Position numbers and translations under genes: made by a program. Positions 1-32,846 of a DNA stretch of 53,471 nucleotides are shown in pieces. Each line of letters begins with the position of its first letter. Positions within the stretch are counted from its first letter, which is position 1. The notes below the pieces were generated by a model, which did no database searches, had not been told where the DNA came from, and was given only the letters and a program-made list of their open reading frames with translations. The stretch comes from Nitrospira sp. SB0677_bin_15 (lineage in GTDB: Bacteria > Nitrospirota > Nitrospiria > Nitrospirales > UBA8639), in assembly GCA_009842645.1 (NCBI GenBank), contig VYFB01000001.1:1-53471 (forward strand), written 5' to 3'.

Positions 1-216
1 CCGACCTACGGTCTCCTCACTCCCTCGCCCCTTGTGGGAGAGGGCTGGGGTGAGGGGGAGAAAGCAACGATTCGCCCCGGGCCATGACCCGGCATAGAGC
101 TGACTCCACGCGTCATCACCCTCACCTTAATCCTCTCCCGTCAAGGGAGAGGAGACCAAAACGTTCCTCCGCTCTCCCGTCAAGGGAGAGGACACGAAGA
201 GCCCGTCAACTACCCG
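1..216. repeat. Intergenic palindromic repeats downstream of lpxK
   Basis: No gene is visible. The stretch holds several copies of a short GC-rich palindromic family: one of the form CTCGCCCCTTGTGGGAGAGG followed by GCTGGGGTGAGGG at about 22-60, and two hairpins with CTCCC/GGGAG stems around 136-192. The same family recurs near 7.2, 27.9, 36.3 and 38.4 kb. The hairpins lie just past the lpxK stop and could stabilise or end the long envelope transcript, but no T-run follows them. Confidence 0.75.
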
Positions 217-1242: not shown

Positions 1243-1249
1243 GGATTCG

Positions 1250-2551: not shown

Positions 2552-2552
2552 C

Positions 2553-3211
2553 TCAGCACGACCTCGAATCATCACACATCGCTTCCGCTTCGGATGACAG
2601 GGAACAGAGAGTGGTTTCCAAATCTACCCGTATCCGCTCCAAGGTCTCGGCGTCAGCATCACGTTCAACCCGAACCGGGTTTCCCCAAAGATAGATTCCG
2701 CTGGAAAACGGATACGGGACTATGAACCGGTCCCAACTGGAAAAGACTTTTTTTTTGAGCACGCAAACGCCAAGGGAACGATGGGCAGGCCCGTGAATTT
2801 GGCGAGCGCGACGACCCCCGGTTGAATGCGATGCCTGGGCCCTTTGGGGCCATCGGGCGTAATGACGAGATCAACACCTTCCCGACTCAGGCGAATCAGC
2901 TGACGCAAGGCCTTGTACCCTCCCCGCGTGGCTGACCCGCGGACCGCTCCATATCCGAATCGTTTGACGATTCGATAGATCAGTTCTCCATCACGGTGCT
3001 GGCTGATCAGGATCTCGGGGTGAGGACCGCGGTAACCTAACGGGATCATCAATTGTTGCCCGTGCCAGAATGCCACGATGACATTGCGTCCTTCCCCGTA
3101 TATTCGATCCAGCGGTTCGAATCCATACGACTTCAAGGACATCGACTTGCCGAGAAGCCGAATCGTGGCCGCGCCGAGAAACGACAGAATACTGAATTTC
3201 AATGGGTTCAT
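2553..3211 (-). CDS. DUF374 (lysophospholipid acyltransferase-like) protein, interrupted by a -1 frameshift at an A9 run
   Basis: The first 150 or so residues match the DUF374 family, relatives of the LPLAT acyltransferases: a hydrophobic N-terminus, AFWHGQQLMIPLGY, ISQHRDGE, RGSATRGG and TPDGPKGPRH. The reading frame then hits nine A (2748-2756 on the plus strand as T9) and would end 7 codons after the serine that follows the lysines, giving 163 residues. The family's C-terminus (SSWDRFIVPYPFSSGIYLWG) continues in the -1 frame to a stop at 2553, one base before the waaA ATG, for about 219 residues in all. In phase, the run reads as the slippery heptamer A AAA AAG. This may be real recoding or transcriptional slippage, an indel in a homopolymer, or a recent mutation. 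Members of this family sit beside msbA/waaA in other genomes, and a role in lipid A or lipid remodelling is only inferred. Confidence 0.8.
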
Positions 3212-3237
3212 TTTTTAAGCAGTCGGTTTTTCATTGG

Positions 3238-4986: not shown

Positions 4987-6119
4987 GCCTGACACTCCTC
5001 CAACACGACCTCCGCAGCTCTCAGGGAAGCTCCGGAAGGGCCAAGTTCGGCGCGAATGCCGACCAAGGCTTCCCGCATTTGATCGTACCGGGTTCGATCC
5101 TTGAGAAGGTGAAGCGCCTCCGCGCTCAGCCGCTCCGCCGTCACCTCAGATTGCAATAATTCCGGAACAACGCCGCGCCCAGCGACTAAATTCACCAGAC
5201 CCACGTATTCGACGGTTATGAGCATTCTGGCCAGAAGGCAGGTCAACCAGGACACGCGGTACGCCAGAATCATGGGCGTGCCGACCAGGGCTGCTTGTAA
5301 CGTGGCCGTCCCCGACGCCACCAACAGCAAATCCGCGGCTGCCATGACTTCGGCCGGCTGATTCGGCACCACGGTCACGGGAAGCACCTTGCGATCAATC
5401 ACGTCGTTGACCCATTCTTCGGCTACCGTGGGCGCCCGTCCGATGACACAATGAAGGTCGGGAAACGATTCCCTGATTCGTCCGGCCGCCTCCAGCATGG
5501 TCGGCAGGAGTGACTGGATTTCGGAATGGCGGCTTCCGGGAAGCAACCCGAGAATCAAGCCTCGAACCGGAAGACCCAATTGTTTGCGCAACCCGACCGC
5601 ATCATAGCGTTGCGCCACGTCATCGAGTAAGGGGTGTCCGACGAAACTGCACGGCACGTTGGCATCACGGTATATCGGTTCCTCAAAGGGCAAAATCACG
5701 ATCATCCGGCGCACCACGCGTTTGATCAGGTTAATCCGGTGCCGGCCCCAGGCCCAAATCTGCGGGGCGATATAATAGATGACGCGATGGCCGAACTTCG
5801 CCGCGATCCTCGCCAACCGGAGGTTCATGGACGGATTATCCACAAAGACCACGCCGTCCAGGGATTCCCGTCTAAAAAACCGCTTCAGGGTCAACACGTT
5901 GGCGAATCCCTTCCAGATCATAAGCGGTCCCGGTATCCCGACGACGTCCAGACGATGCAAGCCTTGCACCAATTCCACCCCTGCGGCTCGCATGTGCTGC
6001 CCGCCTACCCCCACGAGTCTGACTTCAGGCTGAAGTTCTTTTAGGGCCTTGGCTAAATTTGCACCGTGGAGGTCGCCCGACGCTTCACCGGTGACGATCA
6101 TGATCGACAGACCAGCCAC
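4983..6119 (-). CDS. lpxB: Lipid-A-disaccharide synthase LpxB
   Basis: LpxB (GT19) condenses UDP-2,3-diacylglucosamine with lipid X to make the beta-1',6 disaccharide of lipid A. The 378-residue protein begins with the family motif GEASGDLHGANLAKAL near residue 11 and contains GVGGQHMRAAG, YYIAPQIWAWG and LLPGSRHSEI, all diagnostic. The start is GTG at 6119, 8 nt after the stop of the oxidoreductase gene. Its stop overlaps the msbA ATG by 4 nt (ATGA), indicating coupled translation. Confidence 0.95.
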   Translation of the reverse strand: MAGLSIMIVTGEASGDLHGANLAKALKELQPEVRLVGVGGQHMRAAGVELVQGLHRLDVVGIPGPLMIWKGFANVLTLKRFFRRESLDGVVFVDNPSMNLRLARIAAKFGHRVIYYIAPQIWAWGRHRINLIKRVVRRMIVILPFEEPIYRDANVPCSFVGHPLLDDVAQRYDAVGLRKQLGLPVRGLILGLLPGSRHSEIQSLLPTMLEAAGRIRESFPDLHCVIGRAPTVAEEWVNDVIDRKVLPVTVVPNQPAEVMAAADLLLVASGTATLQAALVGTPMILAYRVSWLTCLLARMLITVEYVGLVNLVAGRGVVPELLQSEVTAERLSAEALHLLKDRTRYDQMREALVGIRAELGPSGASLRAAEVVLEECQA

Positions 6120-6127
6120 GTCCTCCT

Positions 6128-7090
6128 CTAAGGTGCGAACCTTGAAAGCCCCGTCAGTGGAGACGTTTTTTCACGGATGGACTGTTTGATCGTATGAACG
6201 AGTTCCAAAGCGGCCAAACCCTCTTCGCCGGAGACGCCGCCGGGAGCCCCGGTCAGGATAGCTTGCACAAAAGCCTGTAATTCACGTTGAAGCGGCTCTT
6301 CATCTCCTGCCTGGATCGCTTCTTCCTGAATGGACGATTCGTCGGCCGGGACTTGCCTGTACACGATACCCTGGCGGGAAAGAAAGTCAACGGAAAGATA
6401 GAGGTGCTCCTGAAAAAGACGCATTTTTCGCAAACGGCCGGTCGACATGCGACTGGCCGTCAAATTGACGACACAATCCTTGTCGAATTCCACCCGTGCA
6501 TGCGCAAAATCAACCTGCGGCGAAAGAACCGCGGTCCCCACGGCCTCCACTTTGGAGACTCGCCCCAAGCCGAAAGATAAAATCAGGTCGGCGTCGTGAA
6601 TCATCAGATCCAACACGACGTCAACGTCCGTTCCACGTGGTTGAAAGGGAGCAAGCCGGTGGCATTCGATAAACCTGGGATTCGAGATAAGATCATGGAC
6701 CAAGTCCCTGACCGGATTGAACCGCTCAACGTGTCCCACGTGCAAAACCAACCCGTTCTGCTTCGCCTTGTGGACCATCTGCCGGCCTTCTTCCGGCGTG
6801 ACGGCCAGAGGCTTTTCGACCAGGACGTGCGTGCCGGCTTCAAGGCAGTCCAACGTGACTTCCCGGTGTTGCAAAGTCGGCACGGCGACGCTCACCGCGT
6901 CGACCTGGCCCAACAGGTTCCGGTAATCGCCAAAATGGGGCACCCCGAAGCGGTTGCCGATTTCAGTCCGGCGGGGCTGGTCAATATCAACCACACCCAC
7001 CAACCGGGCCTGGGGCAATTCCGAATAAATGCGAGCATGATGTTGACCAAGATGTCCCACACCAATGACGCCGACGTTGATAAATTCCAT
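6128..7090 (-). CDS. Gfo/Idh/MocA-family oxidoreductase, GnnA-like by context
   Basis: A 320-residue NAD(P)-dependent oxidoreductase. The N-terminal Rossmann motif is GVIGVGHLGQHHARIY (residues 6-21), and the family's EKPLA motif lies near residue 95. The C-terminal half is the usual alpha/beta dimerisation domain. The ATG at 7090 starts the Rossmann fold directly; the open frame further upstream runs through intergenic repeats and is not coding. It lies between lpxI and lpxB. In Acidithiobacillus and Leptospira the related GnnA oxidises the 3-OH of UDP-GlcNAc, and the transaminase GnnB then adds an amine for 3-amino lipid A. No gnnB is next to this gene. The substrate is therefore an inference from position, and another nucleotide-sugar or inositol substrate is possible. 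Confidence 0.8.
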   Translation of the reverse strand: MEFINVGVIGVGHLGQHHARIYSELPQARLVGVVDIDQPRRTEIGNRFGVPHFGDYRNLLGQVDAVSVAVPTLQHREVTLDCLEAGTHVLVEKPLAVTPEEGRQMVHKAKQNGLVLHVGHVERFNPVRDLVHDLISNPRFIECHRLAPFQPRGTDVDVVLDLMIHDADLILSFGLGRVSKVEAVGTAVLSPQVDFAHARVEFDKDCVVNLTASRMSTGRLRKMRLFQEHLYLSVDFLSRQGIVYRQVPADESSIQEEAIQAGDEEPLQRELQAFVQAILTGAPGGVSGEEGLAALELVHTIKQSIREKTSPLTGLSRFAP

Positions 7091-7351
7091 GTCTCGTTTT
7101 CCTATGAAAATAGCCACTTTTGTCGTTCCCGACAATAAGAACCGGATCCCCGATTCAGGATAGCCTGCCCTCGACATTAGTAATCGGGGGTCGGGGACGA
7201 ATCCGGAGTCTTGGCTTTTACCCCCTCGCCCATTTCCTGCATTAAGCGGGAAATAGGGAGAGGGTTGGGGTGAGGGGAAAGACCCTGGATTCTCGCGTGC
7301 GCAAGAATGACAGCAGGAGAAGACAAGGATGACAGAAGACGCACCCCCCAA
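7091..7351. repeat. Composite intergenic repeat between lpxI and the oxidoreductase gene
   Basis: This 261-nt gap inside the envelope operon contains two repeat families nested in each other. The outer pair has the form GTCGTTCCCGAC near 7120 and a CCTGGATTCTCGCG...AATGAC arm near 7284-7312. Between them lies the palindrome GCATTAAGCGGGAAATAGGG with CCCTCGCCC/GGGTGAGGGG flanks (about 7220-7280), seen again near 38.4 kb. The transcript could fold extensively here. No gene is supported. Confidence 0.7.
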
Positions 7352-8203
7352 TCAGCCCGGGATACCAATGACGACGATGCCGGCTCGATGAGCTTTCGCC
7401 AACGTCTCTTCTCGATCAAGCATGATGGTCTTGTGGGCTTCCAAAGCCAACACCGAAGCCTTTGCTTCATCCATCACGTCGATGGTTCGAGGACCGACCG
7501 CGGGCAAGTCAAACCGTAAATCCTGCTGGGGCTTGCAACACTTGACGACAACGGCCCCACGCCGGGCCAGCCGGGCGCCGCGCCGGATGGTTTCATCCGT
7601 CCCTTCGACCGCTTCAACCGCAACGATCACGCGATCTTTGACCACCACGCATTGCCCAATGTCCATACGTCCGACGTTTTTCGCAATACGCCATCCGTAG
7701 GCTACGTCCTCCCGTTCCTTCCTGGATGCCTCACGCCGGGTCAACGTGCCTTCGGGAACCACGAGATTCGAAAACCCGAACGTGGACTCTCGAATCGTAA
7801 TCCCTTCCCCTTCCAGGTCGTCGGCAATGGCCCTGAGAATCTGATCATCCTTCCATGATTTCAGTTTGGCAAAAAACGTCATCGCCCGAAAATCCGGACG
7901 CACGCCGGAAAAAAGATGCGTTTTTTTCATCCCCCCCAGCATCACGGCCTGTTCAACGCCGTCACGTTTGAGGGCCTGAATGACTTTCCCGAATTGGCCA
8001 ATGCGAACCCAATGCATCCGGTCGACCACCTGCTCCAACTCAGGAGAGGTTTCACCGCGGTGGGCCACGGCCGACACTCGAAAGCCGAGCTTTCTGGCGT
8101 TTTCGGCAAAGATGATAGGGAAGCGACCATTACCTGCAATAAGGCCTATCCAAGCCCCAGTGGGAGGAAGCGGCAAAGCTGACGACGACAAATCTTGAGT
8201 CAC
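7352..8203 (-). CDS. lpxI: UDP-2,3-diacylglucosamine pyrophosphatase LpxI
   Basis: LpxI hydrolyses UDP-2,3-diacylglucosamine to lipid X and UMP, replacing LpxH in organisms that lack it. The protein starts with an IGLIAGNGRFPIIF segment, contains GGMKKTHLFSG near residue 85, and has the C-terminal DUF1009 region with VVVKCCKPQQDLRFDLPAVG and GPRTI. I choose GTG at 8203 (283 residues), 14 nt after the lpxA stop. Longer starts would overlap lpxA by 46 nt and add a non-family N-terminus. No strong Shine-Dalgarno sequence is visible, so the start is uncertain by a few codons. Confidence 0.92.
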   Translation of the reverse strand: MTQDLSSSALPLPPTGAWIGLIAGNGRFPIIFAENARKLGFRVSAVAHRGETSPELEQVVDRMHWVRIGQFGKVIQALKRDGVEQAVMLGGMKKTHLFSGVRPDFRAMTFFAKLKSWKDDQILRAIADDLEGEGITIRESTFGFSNLVVPEGTLTRREASRKEREDVAYGWRIAKNVGRMDIGQCVVVKDRVIVAVEAVEGTDETIRRGARLARRGAVVVKCCKPQQDLRFDLPAVGPRTIDVMDEAKASVLALEAHKTIMLDREETLAKAHRAGIVVIGIPG

Positions 8204-8217
8204 CGCGCGTGGGTCAC

Positions 8218-9039
8218 CTAAAATGCTTCCTGATCGCTTTGACCTTTTCGCGCGGAACGACACATCCCGCGAGTCGAGGTTTCCAAAAACGTCAGCAGGA
8301 TCAGGACGTCCGGACTATCATCGAATTGATGGCGGGCCAGTTTGATGCTGTCGGCCATGCGCTGGTTTTTTCGAAACAGCAGGCTGTAGGCTTGTTTCAA
8401 CACGCGAATGCGCTGAGCGGAGAACCCTCCCCGGCGAAGCCCAATGGCATTAATCCCATAGAGATCGGCCCGGTTGCCGACTGCGCGCATGAATGGAGGC
8501 ACGTCCCTTGCAACTGCGGAACATCCGCCGATCATGGCGTAGTCGCCGATCCGCACGTATTGATGCACACCCACCAATCCACCAATCACGGCATGATTCC
8601 CGACGGAAATATGTCCGGCAAGCGTCGCAGCATTAGCCATGACGACGTCATCACCAATGTGACAATCATGCGCCACGTGCACGTAGGCCATCAAAAAATT
8701 ATGCCGGCCGATCGTCGTGACGCCGCCACCGAACGCCGTACCGCGGTTCACCGTCACGTACTCCCGCAAAATATTTTCATCGCCGATACTCACGCGCGTC
8801 GGCTCATCATGATATTGGAGGTGCTGGGGCGGCCCCCCGATGGAAACGTAGGGAAAGATTTTACACCGTTGCCCGATATCCGTATGGCCTTCCAGGCTTA
8901 CATGTGAACACAGTTCAGTCCCGCGACCAATTTTCACGTGCTCGCCGATGACGCAAAAAGGCCCCACAATCACGTCCTCATCGAGTTCGGATTTCGGATG
9001 CACGATAGCCGTGGGATGGATAGACCTACTCGACATCAT
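8218..9039 (-). CDS. lpxA: UDP-N-acetylglucosamine O-acyltransferase LpxA
   Basis: LpxA adds a 3-hydroxyacyl chain from ACP to UDP-GlcNAc, the first committed step of lipid A synthesis. The 273-residue protein is a left-handed parallel beta-helix of hexapeptide repeats (IHPTAIVHPKSELDEDVIVG onward) with the catalytic His region YVHVAHDCHIG near residue 122 and a helical C-terminus. The tandem ATGATG at 9039/9036 overlaps the fabZ stop by 14 nt. If the neighbouring oxidoreductase really is a GnnA, this LpxA may use an amino-sugar acceptor, but that cannot be read from the sequence. Confidence 0.95.
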   Translation of the reverse strand: MMSSRSIHPTAIVHPKSELDEDVIVGPFCVIGEHVKIGRGTELCSHVSLEGHTDIGQRCKIFPYVSIGGPPQHLQYHDEPTRVSIGDENILREYVTVNRGTAFGGGVTTIGRHNFLMAYVHVAHDCHIGDDVVMANAATLAGHISVGNHAVIGGLVGVHQYVRIGDYAMIGGCSAVARDVPPFMRAVGNRADLYGINAIGLRRGGFSAQRIRVLKQAYSLLFRKNQRMADSIKLARHQFDDSPDVLILLTFLETSTRGMCRSARKGQSDQEAF

Positions 9040-9547
9040 GATCCTCAAGGTTTGGGTGTCCCGTTTCCGCCTCCGCGGAGCCGGTCTGTTCCGATTGCAG
9101 CATCGCCGTTGATTCAGCCTCGCACACCAGGTCATTTCCGACAAAAGCCTTTCCTTGCATCTTCCAGAACGGTGGCCGGCGTTTAATCACTTCGACCTCC
9201 AACCGTATCTGATCGCCGGGAATCACGGGTTTGCGAAACCTGGCCTTATCGATTCCCGTCAGGTACACAATCGGGGAGCCCTCAACGGACGACGATCGAA
9301 TGGCCAACACTCCGCCTAATTGGGCAAGCGCTTCGACAATTAACACACCGGGGAAGACGGGACGTCCGGGGAAATGGCCTTGGAAGTACGGGTCATTGAC
9401 CGTGACGTTTTTCAATCCGACTGCCCGTCGCCCGGAGTCAAAGGCTACGACCCGGTCCACGAGCAAAAACGGGTAACGATGCGGAAGGATGGCCTGCACT
9501 TCAATGGCATCCATCACAATGTCCGGTTCGGCCATCTGATCGCTCAT
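9026..9547 (-). CDS. fabZ: 3-hydroxyacyl-[acyl-carrier-protein] dehydratase FabZ
   Basis: FabZ dehydrates 3-hydroxyacyl-ACP in fatty acid elongation. This 173-residue hot-dog-fold protein has the catalytic His in LPHRYPFLLVDRV near residue 25 and the catalytic Glu in FPGVLIVEALAQLGG near residue 75, plus the GHFPGRPVFPG loop. The C-terminal 20 or so residues form an extra polar tail (SEQTGSAEAETGHPNLEDHD), and its coding sequence overlaps lpxA. In many genomes lpxD precedes fabZ; here only 80 nt separate fabZ from the ompH-like gene. Confidence 0.95.
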   Translation of the reverse strand: MSDQMAEPDIVMDAIEVQAILPHRYPFLLVDRVVAFDSGRRAVGLKNVTVNDPYFQGHFPGRPVFPGVLIVEALAQLGGVLAIRSSSVEGSPIVYLTGIDKARFRKPVIPGDQIRLEVEVIKRRPPFWKMQGKAFVGNDLVCEAESTAMLQSEQTGSAEAETGHPNLEDHDVE

Positions 9548-9627
9548 GGTTCCCGCATATCCTCAGACCGGAAAAGACCGCCGTGCAACGTCGCTGGCGT
9601 CACGCGCGTCACGCGCGGCCTTGTTCG

Positions 9628-10242
9628 TCAGCGTAACGTGGTCTGGTCCAACATTTCCAACACGGTGGATGAAAAGTCCATACTCTCGTCAAAGTACCGC
9701 GTCGACGTATTCTTTCCCTTTTCGACGACGAGTCCCAACCCTCGTTGCCGGGCAATTTGCTTGACGACCAGGTCAACCTGTTCACGAAATTCATCCAGCA
9801 AGTCGGCCTGCTTGGACTGAAACTCCCGTGACATATTACCGGCTTTTTGCTGGTAGTCCAACATACGCTGGCGTAATTGCTCTTCCTTTTGTTGTTTGGC
9901 CGAAGGACTTAAAACGCTGCCTTGACGCAACAACTCATTTTCCAGATTCCGTAGTTCCTGCTGCTCAAGTTCGAGTAACGCCTGCCGATCCTTCATAAAC
10001 CGGTTGAGCGTCTCATTGACCTGGCGGCCGAGTTTCGACTCTTTCAATAACCATTGCGTATCCACGACACCGATAGCGACACCGGACCCCGCCGGTCGCT
10101 CCGTGGCGGAAATTCCGGCAAGCTCAGAAGCAGGCGTCGTGCAACCGGTAACCACCGGCAACAGAATGGTCACGCCAGCCCAAAGTACGATTCCCGAGCA
10201 TGACAACCAATGCGAACTGATCATGTCCCGTAAGCGTTGCAC
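9628..10242 (-). CDS. OmpH/Skp-family periplasmic chaperone, predicted lipoprotein
   Basis: Skp/OmpH proteins hold unfolded outer-membrane proteins for BamA. The mature part has the family pattern: a short beta strand (GVAIGVVDTQWLLKES), a long charged coiled coil (about residues 70-160) and a C-terminal strand region with GLGLVVEKG. Unlike classical Skp, the leader ends in a lipobox (PVVTGC, Cys about residue 34), so it may be lipid-anchored. The start is GTG at 10242 or ATG at 10224; the GTG lies only 5 nt from the inverted-repeat element that separates it from bamA. The gene order bamA-ompH-fabZ-lpxA supports the family call. Confidence 0.85.
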   Translation of the reverse strand: MQRLRDMISSHWLSCSGIVLWAGVTILLPVVTGCTTPASELAGISATERPAGSGVAIGVVDTQWLLKESKLGRQVNETLNRFMKDRQALLELEQQELRNLENELLRQGSVLSPSAKQQKEEQLRQRMLDYQQKAGNMSREFQSKQADLLDEFREQVDLVVKQIARQRGLGLVVEKGKNTSTRYFDESMDFSSTVLEMLDQTTLR

Positions 10243-10246
10243 TCCA

Positions 10247-10388
10247 GGAACCTCTGATTAAATGCGCTATCGGGCGCATGGCTGCGTTGTGTCCTCACTC
10301 AACCCTCACCTATCTCTCTGATAAACTTCGGGTTTCGCTCCGGGACGCCTTGCCCTGCATCCCGCTATCACATTTAATCAGAGGTTCC
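10247..10388. mobile_element. 142-bp MITE-like element with 18-bp terminal inverted repeats
   Basis: The ends are perfect 18-bp inverted repeats (GGAACCTCTGATTAAATG and its complement). Similarity continues inward as CGCTATCGGG on the left and TGATAGCGGG on the right. No reading frame is present. It fills nearly the whole bamA-ompH gap, ending 1 bp before the bamA stop codon. A partial left-end copy is at 28041 and a right-end copy in reverse orientation starts at 53420. Short length, matched ends and dispersed copies fit a miniature inverted-repeat element. Its parent transposase is not in the window. Confidence 0.8.
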
Positions 10389-10389
10389 G

Positions 10390-12666
10390 CTAGAAGACGT
10401 TCCCGACGGAAAACTCAAACACACTGGATTGTTCTTGGTCCATGCGATCCAATTTGAGGCCCCATGCCGCGCGTAAAGGCCCGAACGGTGAAATCCAGCG
10501 CACCTCTAATCCCGTTGCCCTTCGCAAATTGAAATTCAAATTTTCTTCTTCGGCAAAACCCTTCCCGTAATCAAAAAAGAGTACTCCATTCAACTTTGCC
10601 GTAGGAAGGACGGGAAAAATCAACTCGGTATTCACAATCAACTGTTTATTTCCGCCTGCCAACGTTCCGGAATCGGTCACGGGACCGGCTCGCCCGAATT
10701 GAAATCCGCGCATCGTATTGATACCGCCGACAAAAAAGAGTTCCGTCAGGGGCACGGAATTTCCCGAATACCCGTCCGCCATACCGAACCGCCCACGGAA
10801 CGCCATCCTGAGGTCCCATACGGGTAACGGGATATATTTCAACCCATCAAGCGCGAATCGATAGAAATTATTGGTTCCTCCCAGCATATCGGTTCCGAAA
10901 CCCAGGCGCAGCCCCGTTCTCGATCCGGTACGCGGATCCTGGAAAAAGTCACGGGTATCACGAAAAATACTCGAACGAAACCCCGTCGTGGATTGATCGC
11001 CAAGTTGGTTCCGAATGAAAGACGTTGCGTCAGTGGCCGCATTTGTAATTCTGATTTGCTCACCGACGAGAGTAAAACTTCCCGTGATGTATTCGGAAAA
11101 GGCCCTTCCCCATTGAACCGTTCCGCCCTTTCTCTCTTCCTGGTACGTCAAGAAATTCGTTTGCGTACTAAACCCGTCTGCCTGGAAGGAAGTGGGGCCG
11201 TCAAACAGCGCCGGATTCCTGAAAGTCAGGACGCCGATCGTTCGACGAACACCGACTTGTCCGCGAATCCGAACCAAATACCCCAAACCGAACAAGTTCC
11301 CTTCCGTGATATTGGCAATGGCCGTAAATTGATCGAGAGTGCTGAACCCGCCGCCGATACTGAATTGCCCCGTGGGCTTCTCTTTGACTCGCACTTGCAC
11401 GTCGACCTTATCTTCCTCCACGTGTTCGGGAACCAGCTCGACGGTTTCGAAGAAATTCAGATTATTGAGTCGTTGAAAACTGCGTTTGATGGCCGCGGAA
11501 CCCAGGACTTCCTGTTCATCCACTCGCAACTCCCGGCGAATGACGTTGTCACGCGTCTTATCATTCCCCGTAATGTGAACCTCTCTGACCCGAATCAACG
11601 CCCCTTCCTTGATCGTAAAGGTAATGGTCGTCGTCAGCGTCTCAGGGTTAGGGGATAGATTGGGCTCGACTTCGGCGAATGCGTACCCTTCTGCTCCATA
11701 CATGTCCGTGACGCGAGAAATTTCTTCACGGACCGTCGTACGTTGAAACACGTCATGGGGACGGATAAACGAATATCGCGCAAGGGCTTCGTCTTCAAAA
11801 ACCGTATTCCCTTCATAGCGGACCGTTTGAACCGTATACGGTTGACCTTCACTGATTTGAAACGTCAAGTCCACGGATTCTTTATCATCAACCAGTTCAA
11901 TGGCAGGGGTCCCGACCTGAACGTCAAGGTATCCTCTATTCGAATAATATTCCTTGATCCGTTCAATATCGTTTGAGAGTTCTTCCTGGTGCAGGATCCC
12001 CGCGTCCGTGATGAGGGAGAGAAACGGGGTCCATTCCTGGTTGGCCATCACGCTTAATAAATCTTTTTTATCGAACACGGTCATGCCGGCGAAATGAATC
12101 GTATCGATCTTGGCTCGCGCGCCTTCCTGGATGAAAAAAGTCACACGATTGCGACTCTCCCGTAATTCCTGAATGATCGGAATGACTTGAGCCTTGTGAT
12201 ACCCGCTTTTTTCATATTCTGCCCTAATCTTCTCCGCACTCGACTTGGTTGTCTGTTGATCGAGAAATACTTGATTCTTCAGCGTAATGACCTCTTTCAA
12301 CTTATCATCCGACAACGCGTCATTCCCATCAAAGATAATGGCCGTCACGAATGGTTTTTCTTGCACCACGAAAGTGACCGCGACGCCTTTCGCCGTCGTT
12401 TCCGTCTGCACTTGCACGTCGTCAAAGAAGCCCATATCGTAAATCCGTCGAATCTCCTGCTGTGTCACCTGAGGTGAAAGCGAATCTCCTGTTTTGAGGG
12501 TCACGTTCCCAAGAATCGCGTCCGACTCGATTCGCTGATTTCCCTCAATGGCAATGCTTTCCACGACCACGTCCTGTGCCTGACTCAACGCCGGTGAAGA
12601 CAGACTCATGAACGGGCATCCGGACACGAGAATCATCACCAGCACGCCACGGGTTACGACTCTCAT
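10390..12666 (-). CDS. bamA: Outer membrane protein assembly factor BamA
   Basis: BamA inserts beta-barrel proteins into the outer membrane. The protein has a signal peptide, about five POTRA domains (the first begins VVVESIAIEGNQRIESDAIL) and a C-terminal 16-strand Omp85 barrel. The barrel carries the VRIRGQVG-type strand and a GGINTMRGFQFGRAGP loop containing the conserved RGF. It ends in an aromatic residue (FEFSVGNVF), the barrel insertion signal. I place the start at the ATG at 12666 (758 residues), giving MRVVTRGVLVMILVSG as leader. The frame is open to 12789, and ATGs near 12723 or 12687 are alternatives. It is the first gene of the envelope operon. Confidence 0.94.
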   Translation of the reverse strand: MRVVTRGVLVMILVSGCPFMSLSSPALSQAQDVVVESIAIEGNQRIESDAILGNVTLKTGDSLSPQVTQQEIRRIYDMGFFDDVQVQTETTAKGVAVTFVVQEKPFVTAIIFDGNDALSDDKLKEVITLKNQVFLDQQTTKSSAEKIRAEYEKSGYHKAQVIPIIQELRESRNRVTFFIQEGARAKIDTIHFAGMTVFDKKDLLSVMANQEWTPFLSLITDAGILHQEELSNDIERIKEYYSNRGYLDVQVGTPAIELVDDKESVDLTFQISEGQPYTVQTVRYEGNTVFEDEALARYSFIRPHDVFQRTTVREEISRVTDMYGAEGYAFAEVEPNLSPNPETLTTTITFTIKEGALIRVREVHITGNDKTRDNVIRRELRVDEQEVLGSAAIKRSFQRLNNLNFFETVELVPEHVEEDKVDVQVRVKEKPTGQFSIGGGFSTLDQFTAIANITEGNLFGLGYLVRIRGQVGVRRTIGVLTFRNPALFDGPTSFQADGFSTQTNFLTYQEERKGGTVQWGRAFSEYITGSFTLVGEQIRITNAATDATSFIRNQLGDQSTTGFRSSIFRDTRDFFQDPRTGSRTGLRLGFGTDMLGGTNNFYRFALDGLKYIPLPVWDLRMAFRGRFGMADGYSGNSVPLTELFFVGGINTMRGFQFGRAGPVTDSGTLAGGNKQLIVNTELIFPVLPTAKLNGVLFFDYGKGFAEEENLNFNLRRATGLEVRWISPFGPLRAAWGLKLDRMDQEQSSVFEFSVGNVF

Positions 12667-17098: not shown

Positions 17099-17304
17099 AC
17101 AAAACCACCCGCCCCGTCATTCCGGCAGAAGCAGGAATCCAGGGTTTTTCCGGACAGTCCCGCTTGAATGAAGAAGCAGAAGAGAACGACTCTGGATTCC
17201 CGCTTACAACTGCGGGAATGACGGAGGGGGCGTTGGTTGTTCGTTCTCTCACGCTACGTTAAGATTTGCAGAGGATTCTTGCACCGACCCTGATGGGAAA
17301 CCCG
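17099..17304. repeat. Imperfect palindrome of the CATTCC...GGAATCCAG family
   Basis: About 17114-17227 forms a long inverted repeat. The left arm reads GTCATTCCGGCAGAAGCAGG, and the right arm ends GCGGGAATGAC. Related copies lie at 41.77-41.90 and 49.55-49.67 kb, with part of one near 7.1-7.3 kb. It separates the DUF2062 gene from the HD gene and could act as a processing or termination hairpin. Confidence 0.7.
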
Positions 17305-18687
17305 ATGACCGAACCGATTCCTCACGACGTTTCTCTTATCGCCGACCCGATCCATCATTACATTCAATTCACAGTTCCCCAATCCTCACCGGGCTCAAAC
17401 GAAGTCACCGAAAAAGATCTGATTGATTCTCCCTGGCTCCAACGCCTTCGGTACATTTACCAATTGCAAAGCGCGCGATGGGTCTATCCGGCAGCGGAAC
17501 ACAGCCGGTTTCAGCATTCGCTGGGCGCCATGCATCTGGCAGGGCAATACGCCAAGCACGTGTACCCCAGCCTGGCCCAAACGGTTCGTGACGTTCCTTC
17601 CCTCCCCTACGTCGAAGCGTTGCTCAGGATCACCGCCCTCCTCCACGACGTAGGACACGGTCCCTTTTGTCATTTTTTCGATCACCATTTTCTGCACCGA
17701 TACGGGTTGTCCCACGAACACGTCAGTCAGGCCATTATTCGTCATGAAGCCGGCCCACAAATCAAGCAAGTCCGCCGGAGTCCCTCAGGAACGTTGGCAG
17801 ACCATGAAACACTCGACCCCGAGTACGTGGCGTTTCTGATCCTCAAAAAGCCTGACAAGCAGAATCGACGTTATCCTCGATGGCTGCAACTGCTCCGACC
17901 GTTAATCGGAGGACTGTTCACAGCGGATAACTTTGATTACGTCCTGCGCGACTCCTACATGTGTGGAGTCGCGATCGGACCCGTGGATATCCCCCGGTTG
18001 ATCCATTACACCCTGATCACGCCAAAAGGATTGACCATTCACAAGAACGGATTGCCTGCCCTCCAAATGTTCCTTAACGCCAGGCTCTATCTTTATGCCA
18101 ACGTCTACTATCACCGTACCTCACGCGCCATCGATCTCCATCTCCTGGAGATTTTCCACGAAACAATGGAATGCATTTTCCCTTATAACCCCCTGCAACA
18201 CATGCACCAATACCTTCGACTCACGGATTGGTCGTTGCTGGAAACGGTCCGCGCCTGGGAATCGTCAACGAATCGAAAAAGACGACGGATCGGGGAAGAA
18301 TGGGCCCGCGTGCTGGGACGACACATCAAGTGGAAAACGGCGTACAGCAGGGTGCTGACGATGCGAGACTGCCGCCCACGAGGACCGGCGGCAACACCGG
18401 AGAAACTGGAATCCCGCATTCGTCAACAATTACCTCGACGACTGCGAGGGCTGACGTTTCGAGTGGACATCGCCAGCAAGGACACCCGGCCCTTCAACGT
18501 GTTGAACATGGGCCAATTTCAGTTCTATCTCTACGATCCCGCAACCGGGTCCGTTGAAAAGGAGAAACTTCAAGAGCTGCTTGAATTTTTGCCATCACAG
18601 ATTGTCCAACTCCGAATCTTTGCCGAAAATCATCAGGCCGATGCCGAATTGGCCACCGCGGTGGAACGGGTACTTCACGGCCGGTGA
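17305..18687 (+). CDS. HD-domain phosphohydrolase (COG1078-like)
   Basis: A 460-residue HD-superfamily hydrolase related to dGTPase/SAMHD1-type enzymes. The metal ligands are visible in order: SRFQHSLGAMHLA (His near residue 69), ALLHDVGHGPF (His-Asp near residue 114), and FTADNFDYVLRDS with the distal Asp. The C-terminal 150 residues are basic and less conserved. The ATG at 17305 has GGGA just upstream; an upstream TTG is less likely. The substrate is not evident; members of the superfamily cleave dNTPs or nucleotide second messengers. A second, more divergent HD protein lies in the island at 29109-30206. Confidence 0.85.
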   Translation: MTEPIPHDVSLIADPIHHYIQFTVPQSSPGSNEVTEKDLIDSPWLQRLRYIYQLQSARWVYPAAEHSRFQHSLGAMHLAGQYAKHVYPSLAQTVRDVPSLPYVEALLRITALLHDVGHGPFCHFFDHHFLHRYGLSHEHVSQAIIRHEAGPQIKQVRRSPSGTLADHETLDPEYVAFLILKKPDKQNRRYPRWLQLLRPLIGGLFTADNFDYVLRDSYMCGVAIGPVDIPRLIHYTLITPKGLTIHKNGLPALQMFLNARLYLYANVYYHRTSRAIDLHLLEIFHETMECIFPYNPLQHMHQYLRLTDWSLLETVRAWESSTNRKRRRIGEEWARVLGRHIKWKTAYSRVLTMRDCRPRGPAATPEKLESRIRQQLPRRLRGLTFRVDIASKDTRPFNVLNMGQFQFYLYDPATGSVEKEKLQELLEFLPSQIVQLRIFAENHQADAELATAVERVLHGR

Positions 18688-27914: not shown

Positions 27915-28189
27915 CCCGACAAAAAACTCCCTCGCCCCTTGAGGGAGAGGGCCGGGGTGAGGGGTCTTCAACGATGCGGTTTTCGAAGCGGGTGCAACCT
28001 TCGGCCAACAAGCTGGCAACGGAGCGTTTTAAATAATTTCGGAACCTCTGATTTATTGCACTATCGGGCGCATGGCTGCGTTGTGTCCTCGCTCAACCTT
28101 CACCTTCCGCCATGGCTGGATGCCTCCGCATTCAAGTCACTTCGGAAAGTACGAGAAGTCACTCGCCACTGGATCACAGCATAGACGGA
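27915..28189. repeat. Left boundary of the island: palindrome, gene-end relic and MITE fragment
   Basis: Three pieces lie in this 275-nt gap. 27928-27964 is a CTCGCCCCTTGAGGGAGAGG palindrome. 27966-28013 matches 44 of 48 nt with 32971-33018, the 3' end of the unknown 337-residue gene; on the minus strand it still reads LLAEGCTRFENRIVE. 28041 to about 28108 matches the left end of the 142-bp inverted-repeat element (GGAACCTCTGAT then CTATCGGGCGCATGG). The rest shows nothing recognisable. Confidence 0.75.
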
Positions 28190-29125
28190 TTAAAATATTA
28201 CAGCCCGGTGGATCGGATGAGTCGAATCGAACCTGCTCTCGAACACTTTCAGCAATTCCCTTGTGAAGTGATGCCCTTCGTTCTTGATCGCTCGAAAGGT
28301 TCGATCATCCCGGTTCCCAATCTCCAACTTCCCCAAGTGTTTTCTGGTTTCAAGGTCTTCCAGTTTTTCTAGAAAAAAGTTATAGCTAGTTAGAACCGGC
28401 TCCATAGCAGCCTTACCACATATCTTTATCATTCGTTCCATCACGGGATGGTCGAACAAGTCTTCCAGTATCTTGATCTTTTCGTCCCGCGCACGATCAG
28501 CTGTCATGGCAATGCTGAACAGGCCACTCGCGTAGAGAAGCTTCCGAGAGAAAACAAGCTTGATGTTCCGGATTGCCCACGGCTTCGGTTCACCGCTTCC
28601 GGAAGTCTTGAACTCGTAATCGACCGCTACGGTACGGTAGTACCTGATGATGTCATTGAGCAGAAACAGCGCCAACTGATGATCCGTCATACCTTCTCCA
28701 ATATAGCGCTCAAGTATCTCTCGTCGGAAACCTCGCAGTCCCTCTTTGTTGAACAGCCACTCCCCTTCAAGGAGCAACAATATTCGCCGCGTGATGTTCT
28801 TGTTGCTGTCGTCGTCTCCTCCGATGTTGGCAAGAATTTCGCTTCGACTGACTGTCGCACCAAAGGCACCACCTTCCGATGGACTATTGGGAACAACGCT
28901 ACGGATTTCGGAACGAACGTCCTCATTCAGGCCAGGGGCTGCTTCTGTATCGTCGGACACCATAACGTAGTCGATATCCGATTGCGCTGACGCCTCACCT
29001 CGTGCATACGATCCACAACAAACCAGTAAGGCCGCGTCGTCAAGCGATAGCTCTTTGAGTTGATCTCTGATTTTAGAAAGCTGGCATTTGGAATATCCCA
29101 AACTACGTTCATACGGCGTCGTCAT
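28190..29125 (-). CDS. Nucleotidyltransferase-fold protein paired with an HD hydrolase
   Basis: A 311-residue protein. The N-terminal domain carries the polymerase-beta-type nucleotidyltransferase motif GSYARGEASAQSDIDY (residues 38-53), with the two metal-binding Asp in DID. The remainder is mostly helical and unlike standard tRNA or kanamycin nucleotidyltransferases. GlnD, DUF294 and MNT-type enzymes share only the motif. The ATG at 29125 overlaps the end of the upstream HD gene by 17 nt, so the two are translated together. Base composition is less GC-rich than the housekeeping genes. The nucleotide and target are unknown. Confidence 0.75.
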   Translation of the reverse strand: MTTPYERSLGYSKCQLSKIRDQLKELSLDDAALLVCCGSYARGEASAQSDIDYVMVSDDTEAAPGLNEDVRSEIRSVVPNSPSEGGAFGATVSRSEILANIGGDDDSNKNITRRILLLLEGEWLFNKEGLRGFRREILERYIGEGMTDHQLALFLLNDIIRYYRTVAVDYEFKTSGSGEPKPWAIRNIKLVFSRKLLYASGLFSIAMTADRARDEKIKILEDLFDHPVMERMIKICGKAAMEPVLTSYNFFLEKLEDLETRKHLGKLEIGNRDDRTFRAIKNEGHHFTRELLKVFESRFDSTHPIHRAVIF

Positions 29126-30206
29126 AGAACAAAACTCCCTGCGAGCCGGTCACCGCTTTAACCGCCGAATCGATCTTCATCTTCAACGTCAAAATACGTT
29201 TGCTACGACTGTGTCGATAACGAACATCGTCTTGTCGAGAAAAAAAATCCCCTTCTCGGTCGATATAATAGTTGCGAAATACGTAGCAGACAGGTTCGTC
29301 GACCATGCGAATGACTTCGGCTTTGAACGAACGGCTCGTGAGCAATTCTCTTAATCCCGGCAGTTGTTGAAACAGCTTGGTTTCTGTGCCGAAAAAAGAC
29401 GTGCATTTAATTCGTCCAAGATTCTTTCGAAGAAATTTCTTGCATACAAAATCAGAAAGAACAGAATCTTCGGAATTTATGATCTCTTTATAGACCCAAT
29501 CTTTACATTGCCAAAACGCATCTACGATATTCTTGTCTTTCTCGTTTTCTCGTTTTATTGCTGCATCCGTCACAATGTCCGGACTGGAGGCGCTGGGAGT
29601 TTTTCGTGTGTATCTGTAGGAACGGAGGATACCTTCAATCGTGTCAAAATTGATCGGACCATGAAAGAAGCCATCGAAGCTCAAAACCTCTCCGGAAACA
29701 ACAGCGACCAATTCTTCAACATCTACACCATAGCGCCGAAGAATCGAAAAGACGTTCTTGCCGAGAGGCTTTCGACCGCGAATGATGTCCTTTGACGCAG
29801 CATGATGATCTATTCCGAATTTCTCTCTGAAAACGGATTCCACGGAATGCGACAGCGGGGGATGGCCGATATCGTGCAGGAGGGCAGCTGCACACAGTAA
29901 GCGACGCTCAGACTGCCGTATGTGGCGCCTGAGGCAGTACAGACGTGCCAACTGCATGACTCCAAGACTGTGCTCGTAGCGAGAGTAGCGGATCGCGCCG
30001 GGTTTGCCGTTTGGCCGAGGGATTAGGCAATAGTCGATGGCTCCGAGAAAACGAATATCCTTCAAACGCTGGAAGGCCTGAGTGTCGATAAGTTCCATCA
30101 GCAACGGATCTTTGCCGGTTGCAGCAAGGAGGTCGGTCGGCTCACGGAAGCCGTGTATCACCGATGGCGTTGATATGTCGAGTTGCGCTGACAAAACGGT
30201 CATCAC
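29109..30206 (-). CDS. HD-domain hydrolase (dGTPase/COG1078-like) of an HD-nucleotidyltransferase pair
   Basis: A 365-residue HD-superfamily protein. The metal ligands appear as RYSRYEHSLGVMQLA (His near residue 79), AALLHDIGHPPLSHS (His-Asp near residue 112) and GPINFDTIEGILRSYR (distal Asp), so the site looks intact. The N-terminus (IHGFREP... and TQAFQRLKDIRFLG) is the family's usual one. The C-terminal 150 residues are Lys/Arg-rich and divergent. The start is GTG 30206 or ATG 30203; no strong ribosome site is visible. It could be a dNTPase or a hydrolase for whatever the partner nucleotidyltransferase makes. Distinct from the housekeeping HD gene at 17.3 kb. Confidence 0.78.
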   Translation of the reverse strand: MMTVLSAQLDISTPSVIHGFREPTDLLAATGKDPLLMELIDTQAFQRLKDIRFLGAIDYCLIPRPNGKPGAIRYSRYEHSLGVMQLARLYCLRRHIRQSERRLLCAAALLHDIGHPPLSHSVESVFREKFGIDHHAASKDIIRGRKPLGKNVFSILRRYGVDVEELVAVVSGEVLSFDGFFHGPINFDTIEGILRSYRYTRKTPSASSPDIVTDAAIKRENEKDKNIVDAFWQCKDWVYKEIINSEDSVLSDFVCKKFLRKNLGRIKCTSFFGTETKLFQQLPGLRELLTSRSFKAEVIRMVDEPVCYVFRNYYIDREGDFFSRQDDVRYRHSRSKRILTLKMKIDSAVKAVTGSQGVLFYDDAV

Positions 30207-30696
30207 CAGGAATATCGTTGTCTGTCGCGGACCCGTGGTGCCACCATATCTGACATCCGATGATGGCTGTGTGAGGGGCTCATGACCGCATTGGAGTATT
30301 CCGATCCCAAATACTCGCGGTCAAAATCCAGAGTACAAGGGTGAAATCAAACTGGGCAACAAGGTTTCGTAGTTGCGGCATAGGGCCTCGAATACGATGC
30401 AGTCGAACTGACAGTCCTGAAGGACGAAGACTACAACGAGGTACTATTCCAAACCGAGTGGCTTATGAAGATCTTTGGCCGCGTAGAGTCGCGTGGACCC
30501 CGATATCAAAGCAGAAAGGACCACCAACAACGATAGGGTCGCAATAGTAGTGTCTATGATTTCCATGTGTCAAGCAAAACCACCGAGACTTATATACCGA
30601 AGTGCCCACAAAGTGATGGCAGAGGTGGCTTGAGAAATCTGAACAAGAAGGATAAGTGACATTTCTGCTCAAGAACGACATGATTGCCATCAATGA
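30207..30696. other. Non-coding or decayed stretch upstream of the HD gene
   Basis: No intact gene is seen. Around 30284-30535 all three forward frames show short coding-like runs broken by stops, for example DAVELTVLKDEDYNEVLFQT after a TAG near 30388, and NPEYKGEIKLGNKVS before a TAG. This suggests a degraded gene, but I cannot name it. The promoter of the HD gene should lie at the left end; no convincing -10/-35 pair was found. Confidence 0.4.
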
Positions 30697-30868
30697 GGAG
30701 GAAGCATGATGAGATTCGACAATCGGAGCAGACCGCATTCAGCCCTGGGCGGCCAAACGCCCGACCAAGTCTATTTCAACCAGCCAACGCCAAGCCAAGC
30801 GGCGGCATAACCAGAGCAGAGAGCCACTTATCGACAGCCCGCAAACTGTTCAAAATAACCAAGCCACC
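30697..30868 (+). pseudogene. IS3-family transposase C-terminal relic and IS end
   Basis: The frame 30697-30810 encodes MMRFDNRSRPHSALGGQTPD then QVYFNQPTPSQAAA and a stop. RPHSALGG-TP is the characteristic end of IS3-family OrfB (DDE) transposases. An in-frame TGA lies directly upstream and no catalytic residues remain. The following 58 nt to the CCACCTCT near 30868 resemble the non-coding tail of such elements. So a decayed insertion sequence marks this part of the island. Confidence 0.7.
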
Positions 30869-30925
30869 TCTCTCTGCCTCCTAGTTGAACAGAATGTGGA
30901 GAGTTTGTAAGATCAGAAGGAATAT

Positions 30926-31075
30926 ATGAAAAAGCAAACTCCTAAACCGAAACGTTCCACGAGACGTCCCTTACCAGAGTCGATTGATGCGACTCCAGAC
31001 GAGGTTGCTCACGCCTTACTCACAAGGCCCCCAAAGCAACCAAAAGATTGGAAGTTTCTCAAGAAGGCACACTAA
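30926..31075 (+). CDS. Small basic protein, 49 residues
   Basis: A short gene with a good ribosome site (AGAAGG ending 5 nt before the ATG). The product begins MKKQTPKPKRSTRRPLPESI and continues with DATPDEVAHALLTRPPKQ, ending DWKFLKKAH. The PDEVAxALLxxPPK-W pattern resembles small uncharacterised proteins I have seen in other environmental bacteria, but I cannot name a function. It is followed 9 nt later by the DUF805 gene. Confidence 0.6.
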   Translation: MKKQTPKPKRSTRRPLPESIDATPDEVAHALLTRPPKQPKDWKFLKKAH

Positions 31076-31084
31076 GGTCGTTGG

Positions 31085-31618
31085 GTGCCTTTTAACTCAG
31101 CCGTGGATTATCTCTCCATCAAGAAGTATTGTTTGTTCTCCGGACGAGCTTCCAGATCAGAGTATTGGCGCGTGAAGTTGGGAATGTGCGGTCTTTCCAT
31201 CATTCTTCTCTTTTTTCACCCCACTGGTCGATTCGATCCTGAAGTGCTGGGTCGTCATGTAGGGGAGTCTTTAGTACCATTTGGGTCATTATCGTGGCTC
31301 AAAAATCTGACAGAATCCTATCCAGTGGGAGGAAAACTCATACTGTTTAACATTCTTCTCGCCATCTTTGGTCTGAGTTATCTCATAGTGGATATCACGG
31401 TCTCTATTAGGCGATTGCATGACTTAGATTGGACGATAGGCCCGCTCTTGTTGTTTGTTTTGCTCATCGTGCCCTTGCTCAGTTTTCTCCTCTTTTTAGT
31501 CGAAATCAGCAAAGAAGCGATGGGTGTATGGATTGGCCTGGTGCTCTGCGCATGGCTCATCTTTGCCATTTGGGTTGGAGTCACCCCAGGCACGAAGGGA
31601 AACAACCGCTTTGGGTAA
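31085..31618 (+). CDS. DUF805 membrane protein
   Basis: A 177-residue inner-membrane protein with the DUF805 landmarks: FSGRASRSEYW near residue 18, ITVSIRRLHDLD near residue 103, and the C-terminal PGTKGNNRFG. Four hydrophobic segments are visible. The start is a GTG at 31085 with AAGG about 8 nt upstream. DUF805 proteins are widespread and of unknown function. The A/T-richer composition fits the island. Confidence 0.8.
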   Translation: MPFNSAVDYLSIKKYCLFSGRASRSEYWRVKLGMCGLSIILLFFHPTGRFDPEVLGRHVGESLVPFGSLSWLKNLTESYPVGGKLILFNILLAIFGLSYLIVDITVSIRRLHDLDWTIGPLLLFVLLIVPLLSFLLFLVEISKEAMGVWIGLVLCAWLIFAIWVGVTPGTKGNNRFG

Positions 31619-31625
31619 TCCCTGT

Positions 31626-31811
31626 TTGGTCATCGAGGCACTTCGGTATATAAGTCCCACTCCAAAGCATGTTGATCGAAGTCTTAGAGCCATTATGCCA
31701 AGGAGCGGGCCGGAAAACCCGCAAATCCTAGGAATAGAGTTTTCCCTAGAACGCGGAAACAAGCAGTTTTGGATGAGACAGATTGAGACCAAAGACCAAC
31801 ACTTGAAATGA
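31626..31811 (+). CDS. Possible small protein, 61 residues or less
   Basis: An open frame from a TTG at 31626 (or an ATG at 31695) whose stop overlaps the next gene's ATG as ATGA. That overlap is the main reason to list it. No ribosome site, domain or family is recognised, and it may be non-coding. Confidence 0.25.
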   Translation: MVIEALRYISPTPKHVDRSLRAIMPRSGPENPQILGIEFSLERGNKQFWMRQIETKDQHLK

Positions 31812-32014
31812 CTCAGTACGGGCGGATTCTTCGCAAGCCCTATTACGTTTGCCAGACCTGCCCTGCGATCATGGCCGAAGGCAAGAATGGGAAATCTGAG
31901 TTTTGTGAACCGCCGAGGTATCGAACAAAACGAGAAGCCGCTGAAAAGTGCATGGACCGATATTTCAGAGGACTTGATCTTGAATTTGATGGATCGATCT
32001 TAAATTCAAACTGA
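31808..32014 (+). CDS. Small Cys-containing unknown protein
   Basis: A 68-residue product, MTQYGRILRKPYYVCQTCPA onward, with a CQTC pair near residue 15, a further Cys at about 33 and a Cys near 48, so it could hold a small metal site. The C-terminal half is charged. It is 7 nt upstream of the next small gene, suggesting joint transcription. No family is recognised. Confidence 0.45.
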   Translation: MTQYGRILRKPYYVCQTCPAIMAEGKNGKSEFCEPPRYRTKREAAEKCMDRYFRGLDLEFDGSILNSN

Positions 32015-32021
32015 AACACCT

Positions 32022-32351
32022 ATGCCAGACAAACGACCAGAGCAATTACCGCTCCTGCCAGAACATACACCCAACGATTTACAGGAATGTCCGGGACCGC
32101 TTCTAGTTTACCGTGCCATTCTCTACGATCTGACTGGCTATTTACTGCAACATGCCTCAGATAAAGAGTTGGTCGAACAGTATTGTAGAAACTGCGTAAA
32201 AGCTTTTGCCGACGATGGCACTGGCATTATGGCAAAGGGGGCAACAGTTGCTCCAACATCGGACTGGCATAAGATCGCACAAGGCATTGAGAAGGCACGG
32301 CTAGATTTCCTGCGCATTCTCGATCACCTTAAACAAGCCCATAACTTATAA
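32022..32351 (+). CDS. Unknown protein, 109 residues
   Basis: A soluble, mostly helical product, MPDKRPEQLPLLPEHTPNDL onward, with a central YDLTGYLLQHASDKELVEQY segment. I do not recognise a family. It follows the 68-residue gene by 7 nt and runs up to the truncated hicA. Confidence 0.45.
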   Translation: MPDKRPEQLPLLPEHTPNDLQECPGPLLVYRAILYDLTGYLLQHASDKELVEQYCRNCVKAFADDGTGIMAKGATVAPTSDWHKIAQGIEKARLDFLRILDHLKQAHNL

Positions 32352-32361
32352 CTGCCATTAT

Positions 32362-32523
32362 TTTTTTGGCGAACCGAGACAGACGGGGTCCAGTCACAGG
32401 ATATACAAAACACCGTGGCAAGGAGACCCTCGCATCAATATCCAGAATGCCAAGGGCATGGCTAAACCATACCAAGTCCGCCAGGTTCTGCGGGCGATCG
32501 CTCGTCTGGAGTCTGAATCATGA
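32362..32523 (+). pseudogene. hicA: 5'-truncated hicA toxin gene
   Basis: The frame encodes GSSHRIYKTPWQGDPRINIQ followed by NAKGMAKPYQVRQVLRAIAR. GSxH holds the catalytic His of HicA mRNA interferases, and the KPYQVRQ end is typical of one HicA group. The stop overlaps the hicB ATG as ATGA, the normal arrangement. No ATG, GTG or TTG start suitable for a full N-terminus was found upstream; about 20-25 residues seem to be missing. The toxin is probably inactive. Confidence 0.65.
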
Positions 32524-32846
32524 CTAAAACCTATGATCGTTACACGTACCGGGTAACGTGGTCTGGAGAAGATGGGGAGCATGTTGGGTTATGCGCTGAA
32601 TTTCCCGGCCTGAGTTGGCTTGACACATCACCGGAGAAGGCGCTGGTGGGTATCCGCCGGCTTGTCAAGGGCTGCCTCAGGGATATGCAAAAAAACCAGG
32701 AGGACATGCCCGAACCTCTTGCGCTGAAAAATTACAGCGGAAAGTTCATGGTGCGAGTTCCACCGGAAACGCACCGGCTGCTCTCCATCCAAGCGGCTGA
32801 GTCCGGGGTCAGCCTGAATCGGCTCATCGCCGGCAAATTACGATGA
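32520..32846 (+). CDS. hicB: HicB-family antitoxin
   Basis: A 108-residue antitoxin. Residues about 5-60 form the HicB RNase-H-like domain (YTYRVTWSGEDGEHVGLCAE, FPGLSWLDTSPEKAL). Residues about 72-108 form a ribbon-helix-helix DNA-binding domain (GKFMVRVPPETHRLLSIQAA and SGVSLNRLIAGKLR). It normally neutralises HicA and represses its own operon. Here the toxin gene in front is truncated, leaving an orphan antitoxin. Confidence 0.88.
   Translation: MTKTYDRYTYRVTWSGEDGEHVGLCAEFPGLSWLDTSPEKALVGIRRLVKGCLRDMQKNQEDMPEPLALKNYSGKFMVRVPPETHRLLSIQAAESGVSLNRLIAGKLR

Follow-up and report, generated by a model that had tools for sequence, protein, structure and literature searches.

A SAMHD1-like HD phosphohydrolase and a nucleotidyltransferase form a mobile two-gene unit, a possible write/erase nucleotide module

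RESULTS

The gene pair and its surroundings

The window (the whole stretch of 53,471 nucleotides analysed, from contig VYFB01000001.1 of Nitrospira sp. SB0677_bin_15) carries two adjacent genes on its reverse strand. The first encodes an HD-domain phosphohydrolase of 365 amino acids (29109–30206; Pfam HD, 9e-12) of the SAMHD1/EF1143 branch, and the second a nucleotidyltransferase (NTase) of 311 amino acids (28190–29125; NTP_transf_2, 5e-8) that resembles the protein PDC-M70A. The HD gene starts with GTG, and ATG is the next codon. The two genes overlap by exactly 17 nt (29109–29125, reverse strand), as the initial annotation of this DNA had it, and a Shine–Dalgarno-like GGGAG lies 5′ to the ATG of the NTase gene. 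Translational coupling of the two genes through the overlap is likely.

The pair lies in an accessory island (27915–32351) between a PHP-domain gene and a HicB-like gene. The site is empty in sister Nitrospira (L169, L173 and L174), where the PHP-domain gene, whose end is at 27914 in the window, directly adjoins DNA that corresponds to the window from ~32352 onwards. Thus the pair sits in a 4.4-kb insertion, and the small island proposed earlier is real. The unit common to the nearest Nitrospira (G173) spans 28184–30583 on the reverse strand; it comprises the pair and ~380 nt upstream, and matches at 95.6% compared with 84–91% for the flanks. In G303 the NTase is broken.

An insertion sequence relic had been reported in the island, and it can be recognized by eye, with no profile, as the remnant of the C-terminus of an IS3-type transposase (30711–30785, forward strand; translation RPHSALGGQTPDQVYFNQP). 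The reported broken toxin gene fared differently: what is recognizable is an intact HicB-family antitoxin-type protein (32520–32846), and no HicA toxin is readable in the translated sequence upstream of it. A perfect 20-bp inverted repeat (GACTTATATACCGAAGTGCC) occurs at 30587–30606 and 31637–31656, 1,030 nt apart. It brackets a DUF805 gene as well as the IS3 remnant, and the repeats are possibly the ends of a decayed element.

The HD protein retains its metal site and has a rebuilt substrate pocket

The AlphaFold2 model of the HD protein (pLDDT 91) finds its best PDB matches in SAMHD1 and Enterococcus faecalis EF1143 (TM 0.52–0.59). All the elements of an intact metal site that had been described are in place: R-Y-E-H79-S, L-L-H111-D112-I-G-H115 and the distal N-F-D188. 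The first part of the site, from H79 to H111-D112 (29871–29972, reverse strand), is invariant in alignment A4, with the dyad H120/E123 just 3′ to it. The distal motif D188-T-I-E-G-I-L-R195-S (29619–29645, reverse strand) keeps the metal ligand D188. Ligands H79, H111, D112 and D188 and the catalytic H120, those expected of a SAMHD1-type site, are all present and invariant, and the catalytic residues hold across 64–76 homologues. The near invariance of the metal ligands and of the dyad argues that the protein is a catalytically active enzyme, and probably no decoy.

What does such an enzyme cut? In SAMHD1 the 3′-OH of the substrate is bound by Gln149 and Asp319 and the triphosphate by Lys312, with Tyr315 lining the sugar pocket (PMC7045340). 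The equivalents of K312, Y315 and D319 in the window protein are T189, G192 and S196. Across the family, with the residue register taken from the EF1143 alignment, Q149 is replaced by F in 64 of 64 sequences, K312 by T in 63, Y315 by G in 63, and D319 by S, C or T in 60. This family-wide replacement of the residues that recognize a dNTP suggests a substrate other than free dNTP, so that the protein would be no ordinary dNTPase. The changes should be read as marking altered recognition, leaving aside the identity of the substrate recognized. As an internal control we used another HD hydrolase of the window that also belongs to the SAMHD1-like branch (17263–18684, forward strand); in its DNFDYVLRD motif the Y and the final D are retained. 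The description of the HD protein as dGTPase-type was not borne out, as it scores 25.9 bits against TIGR01353, for which the cut-off is 152, and it belongs in the SAMHD1 branch with the dNTP-recognition residues replaced. Membership of the dGTPase family is therefore rejected.

The nucleotidyltransferase

The NTase is a member of the pol-beta superfamily. Its GS…DID motif, noted previously, is indeed found as G38-S39…S49-D50-I-D52, and G38-S39-x10-D50-x-D52 (28970–29014, reverse strand) is invariant in the 76-sequence alignment A3. Such essential invariance of GS-x10-DxD argues for a protein that is likewise probably active as a catalyst, not a decoy. The protein matches the PADLOC candidate PDC-M70A with E = 5e-56 over 285 residues. 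Its AlphaFold2 model (pLDDT 93) gives the protein AMPylase DrrA as the best match among solved structures in Foldseek, followed by GlnE; these matches are weak (TM ≤0.48, rmsd 8 Å). DrrA is also reached by sequence profile (E = 2e-5), among other NTases.

Two more familiar identities were considered and rejected. There is weak similarity to aminoglycoside nucleotidyltransferases (22 bits with ANT(4′)-II), far under the model cut-off. For the tRNA CCA nucleotidyltransferases, no CCA model is among the matches of P0002, and the homologue on an E. coli plasmid scores 15 bits against a cut-off of 281. More generally, neither gene of the pair belongs with GlnD or the tRNA nucleotidyltransferases, the housekeeping assignments that the initial annotation had set against its own proposal, the model scores being far under the cut-offs.

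In nearly all members of the family a short hydrophobic tail, for example AVIF, ALVF or YLVI, forms the exact C-terminal end (28193–28210 in the window). This conserved extreme C-terminus suggests that it may insert into a partner or target.

The HD and NTase genes are inherited together

How general is the pair? We scanned 84,980 genomes of bacteria and archaea with the NTase alignment and analysed the best 80 of the 260 relatives that it gave. These are the sequences most similar to the window NTase, near-copies included, and the pairing counts consequently apply to the closest clade and should not be extended to the family at large. At 78 of the 80 loci the neighbourhood could be assessed, a contig end hiding the neighbouring gene in L052 and L070. 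The HD gene lies next to that of the NTase in 76 of these 78. It is directly upstream on the same strand in 72, fused to the NTase in three (L096, L101 and L103, all Pseudomonas) and convergent in one (L051); in L053, L054, L096, L103 and L108 the HD gene was read by a six-frame check. The spacing is between –74 and +40 nt in 69 of the 72 same-strand loci. The two exceptions are L109, where the partner is a TIM-barrel protein, and L102, which has no partner within 10 kb.

The pair recurs in Nitrospirota and Pseudomonadota at 26–65% identity, with catalytic residues essentially invariant, and the sequence distances of the HD and NTase proteins are correlated (r = 0.86, a value as high being reached in none of 2000 permutations). 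The HD and NTase genes are thus a genuine, co-inherited and widely inherited two-gene unit. This adjacency supports the two-gene system that had been proposed, and the unit occurs on mobile DNA.

The NTase family exchanges its partners

Elsewhere in the family the NTase is accompanied by other proteins. The partner is a 2H phosphoesterase in L025, L027, L188 and L193, a DEDDh exonuclease in L026 that is recognized by a PADLOC model of an exonuclease effector (9e-36), and a TIM barrel in L018, L019 and L109. Histidine phosphatase is the sole partner in L017, and at 21 loci it is a third gene 3′ to the NTase; the contig of one such locus, L070, ends short of the HD gene. Monoesters are the usual substrate of histidine phosphatases, and TIM-barrel proteins like these are not necessarily phosphodiesterases. 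The divergent NTases L190, L191, L192 and L194, all from Gammaproteobacteria, have no recognized hydrolase partner. By eye, genes like lipoprotein-release transporters lie near those of L192 and L194. These stand-alone proteins, and two intact NTases with no HD gene nearby (L102, over 10 kb, and L183, over 1.5 kb), indicate that an eraser is not always needed in the vicinity.

Enzymes of the 2H, DEDDh and HD types are frequent in RNA end processing. This, and the membership of the NTase in the pol-beta superfamily, would fit a unit for RNA end repair, in which damaged 3′ ends of RNA are healed or trimmed by the hydrolase and re-extended by the NTase. Yet the unit has no ligase, kinase or RNA-binding domain, the NTase homologue reaches just 15 bits with CCA enzymes, and the fold is closer to that of the protein AMPylases; we regard such a role as highly improbable.

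Mobility, distribution and genomic context

In a tree of the NTases the window protein is nested in Pseudomonadota, far from other Nitrospirota sequences, which indicates horizontal acquisition; the source of the window pair was the Pseudomonadota. The carriers can be very small. The pair is the only cargo recognized on the 4,499-bp E. coli plasmid pISHS7_5, which has a Rop-type backbone; among 5,426 E. coli genomes, its own alone contains most of this plasmid. In a predicted viral contig (IMGVR_UViG_3300035491_000331; L196:860-8442) HD, NTase and histidine phosphatase stand in a row. The contig has the filamentous-phage genes Zot (2.6e-41) and an Ace-like gene, as well as a C5 DNA methylase-like gene. 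It was the one match when IMG/VR was searched with alignments; single-protein queries there gave none, nor did the NTase match anything in annotated phage genomes. The phage genes of this contig, sought at the 80 loci, are present at none of them.

Plasmids sharing the backbone of pISHS7_5 carry HigBA or restriction-modification genes. This might be expected if the pair were an addiction system, as had been proposed in the form of a toxin and its control: as the toxin, the NTase would modify an essential target; the HD enzyme would serve as its enzymatic antidote, and the pair would be kept because it maintains plasmids and islands. The order of the genes, with that of the hydrolase first and overlapping that of the NTase, is consistent with this. 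Simple toxin–antitoxin function is however weakened by the intact NTases of L102 and L183 with no HD gene in those intervals. The decaying loci give no clear direction; L108 keeps the HD gene and has a broken NTase, and in L021 and L052 it is the NTase that is decaying. We retain the proposal as a rival, and an unlikely one.

The NTase is distributed sporadically: counting the seed genomes, it occurs in 9 of 396 Nitrospirota (E ≤ 1e-11), 6 of 385 Alphaproteobacteria and 6 of 369 Gammaproteobacteria. Such a distribution, and carriers that include a filamentous phage and a cryptic plasmid, argue against a metabolic or antibiotic-modifying pair outside conflict, one that for example nucleotidylates a small molecule and reverses the modification. 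The weak resemblance to aminoglycoside nucleotidyltransferases speaks for such a pair, as does the relative in L017 (plasmid of Rhizobium sp. BT04, 113-11109), where NTase and histidine phosphatase lie amid glycosyltransferases, MFS transporters, an aminotransferase and an oxidoreductase, possibly a natural-product cluster. On balance we consider this very unlikely.

A PADLOC scan of 130 near (<3 kb) and 130 far (>5 kb) neighbours found defence families in both sets; we claim no difference between them, the far genes being a control that is not genome-wide. One gene near the pair (L085:6616-7392) matches PDC-M41B/M30B; among the 130 near genes scanned, three do. Another (L079:10987-11817) looks by eye like Gp37/Gp68, a family that is also represented beside the Clover-like pair in L178. 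A further gene near the pair is L091:11532-12191.

DISCUSSION

A candidate write/erase module

One active NTase family with a changing partner, mostly a phosphate-ester hydrolase, is most easily explained if the partner undoes the work of the NTase. Our preferred, if tentative, reading is thus a mobile accessory write/erase nucleotide module, to which we give a little less than an even chance. It agrees with the earlier proposal that one enzyme attaches a nucleotide which the other takes off. From an NTP the NTase, with its protein-AMPylase-like fold, would form a nucleotide product, be it a short oligonucleotide or a target that has been nucleotidylated. Hydrolysis of that product by the co-translated HD enzyme would restrain its level and any harm that it may do. 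At related loci the part of the eraser would be taken by an unrelated hydrolase, whether 2H phosphoesterase, DEDDh exonuclease, histidine phosphatase or TIM barrel, and at some a histidine phosphatase is added as the third gene. The module as a whole moves via plasmids, a filamentous phage and genomic islands. In this model the biological role, the product and the direction in which each enzyme works are inferred. Counting against it are the weak structural matches of the NTase, the usual preference of histidine phosphatases for monoesters, the doubt whether the TIM barrels are phosphodiesterases, and the NTases that stand alone.

The mobile carriers suggest a role in conflict, most probably anti-phage or in plasmid or phage maintenance, and anti-phage defence is plausible for the pair. 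The broader proposal, that these are mobile conflict modules in which a single NTase family draws on exchangeable erasers from five or more unrelated folds (HD, 2H, DEDDh, histidine phosphatase and TIM barrel), the HD form being SAMHD1-like and re-specialized away from free dNTPs, is possible and held with a shade more reserve.

Was the pair already described? We found no description of the HD-paired form in the literature searched, which covered few subscription journals. To that extent the claim of an undescribed system stands for the pair; it fails for the NTase alone, which is already the PADLOC candidate PDC-M70A. In the Hailong and Clover systems, both of which contain an NTase, nucleotide signals restrain as well as trigger immunity, and the pair looks like an undescribed relative of such recent anti-phage nucleotide systems, in kind and not by descent.

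The pair is significant in several respects. It adds a separate NTase family, widespread yet sporadic, with swappable hydrolases and a natural fusion. Carriage by so small an E. coli plasmid (4.5 kb) and by a filamentous phage makes its function testable in a laboratory strain. Finally, enzymes of the SAMHD1 fold with an intact metal site and a rebuilt substrate pocket offer a route to what else this fold can cut.

Comparison with known systems

The window HD protein shares its fold and metal site with the SAMHD1 and EF1143 dNTPases, and differs from them in that the residues for the 3′-OH, the triphosphate and the sugar pocket are replaced throughout its family. For the NTase the closest entry is PDC-M70 of PADLOC, made up of PDC-M70A and PDC-M70B. 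PDC-M70B is a TIM barrel, found beside relatives of the NTase on rhizobial plasmids (L018 and L019), whereas the partner here is an unrelated HD protein and no TIM-barrel gene was recognized in the window island. PDC-M70 is named nowhere in the literature searched.

In GlnD an NTase writer and an HD eraser are united within one protein, so that the logic is similar; yet the scores are 14–15 bits against cut-offs of at least 631, the NCBIfam uridylyltransferase model giving 14.7 bits against 631, and the HD domain is of another branch. The type VII HEPN/MNT toxin–antitoxin systems share the MNT-type fold with the window NTase, which is however ~3-fold longer, scores 17.8 bits with MntA against a cut-off of 60, and has an HD protein in place of HEPN as its partner. 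The HalB NTase of Hailong is of the same superfamily and a weak structural match. With the HalB model, however, the window NTase scores 18.5 bits where the cut-off is 190, and its partner is an HD protein instead of HalA.

Clover comprises the HD dGTPase CloA and the NTase CloB, which makes an inhibitory nucleotide (PMC12265719). It too is formed by two genes, for an HD phosphohydrolase and an NTase of pol-beta fold, and the spacing of the dyad H120/E123 in the window HD protein is that of H126/E129 in CloA. Characteristic of Clover are p3diT synthesis and a dGTPase activated by dTTP. Our comparator is a pair found by tblastn in plasmids, located on the Phaeobacter piscinae plasmid pP14_b (L178:2899-5129), in which P0004 is CloA-like and P0003, which follows it, is taken to be CloB-like. 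This is a probable Clover system; its CloB-like NTase, annotated as a hypothetical protein, begins 8 nt after the dGTPase, and P0004 keeps 14 of the 15 N-terminal CloA positions checked and nearly all residues of the p3diT/dTTP site. P0004 scores 327.5 bits with TIGR01353 compared with 25.9 for the window HD protein, and similarity between the window NTase and P0003 is undetectable (BLASTP E = 8.3, hhalign probability 4.9%). As far as P0003 stands for CloB, the pair is thus no Clover by descent.

Clover is the described system nearest to the pair in logic, and the pair could still work like it. The HD protein would then be the effector, destroying nucleotides when a phage infects, and a small nucleotide made by the NTase would inhibit it in healthy cells, exactly the logic described for Clover (PMC12265719). 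The spacing of the dyad fits, as does the DEDDh partner of L026 with its match to an exonuclease effector. Against this, the HD protein is no member of CloA's dGTPase family, its dNTP-recognition residues are replaced, the NTase has no detectable likeness to the CloB-like protein, and 2H phosphoesterases and histidine phosphatases would be odd as toxic effectors. We think it rather doubtful that the pair operates in this manner, and prefer the write/erase reading.
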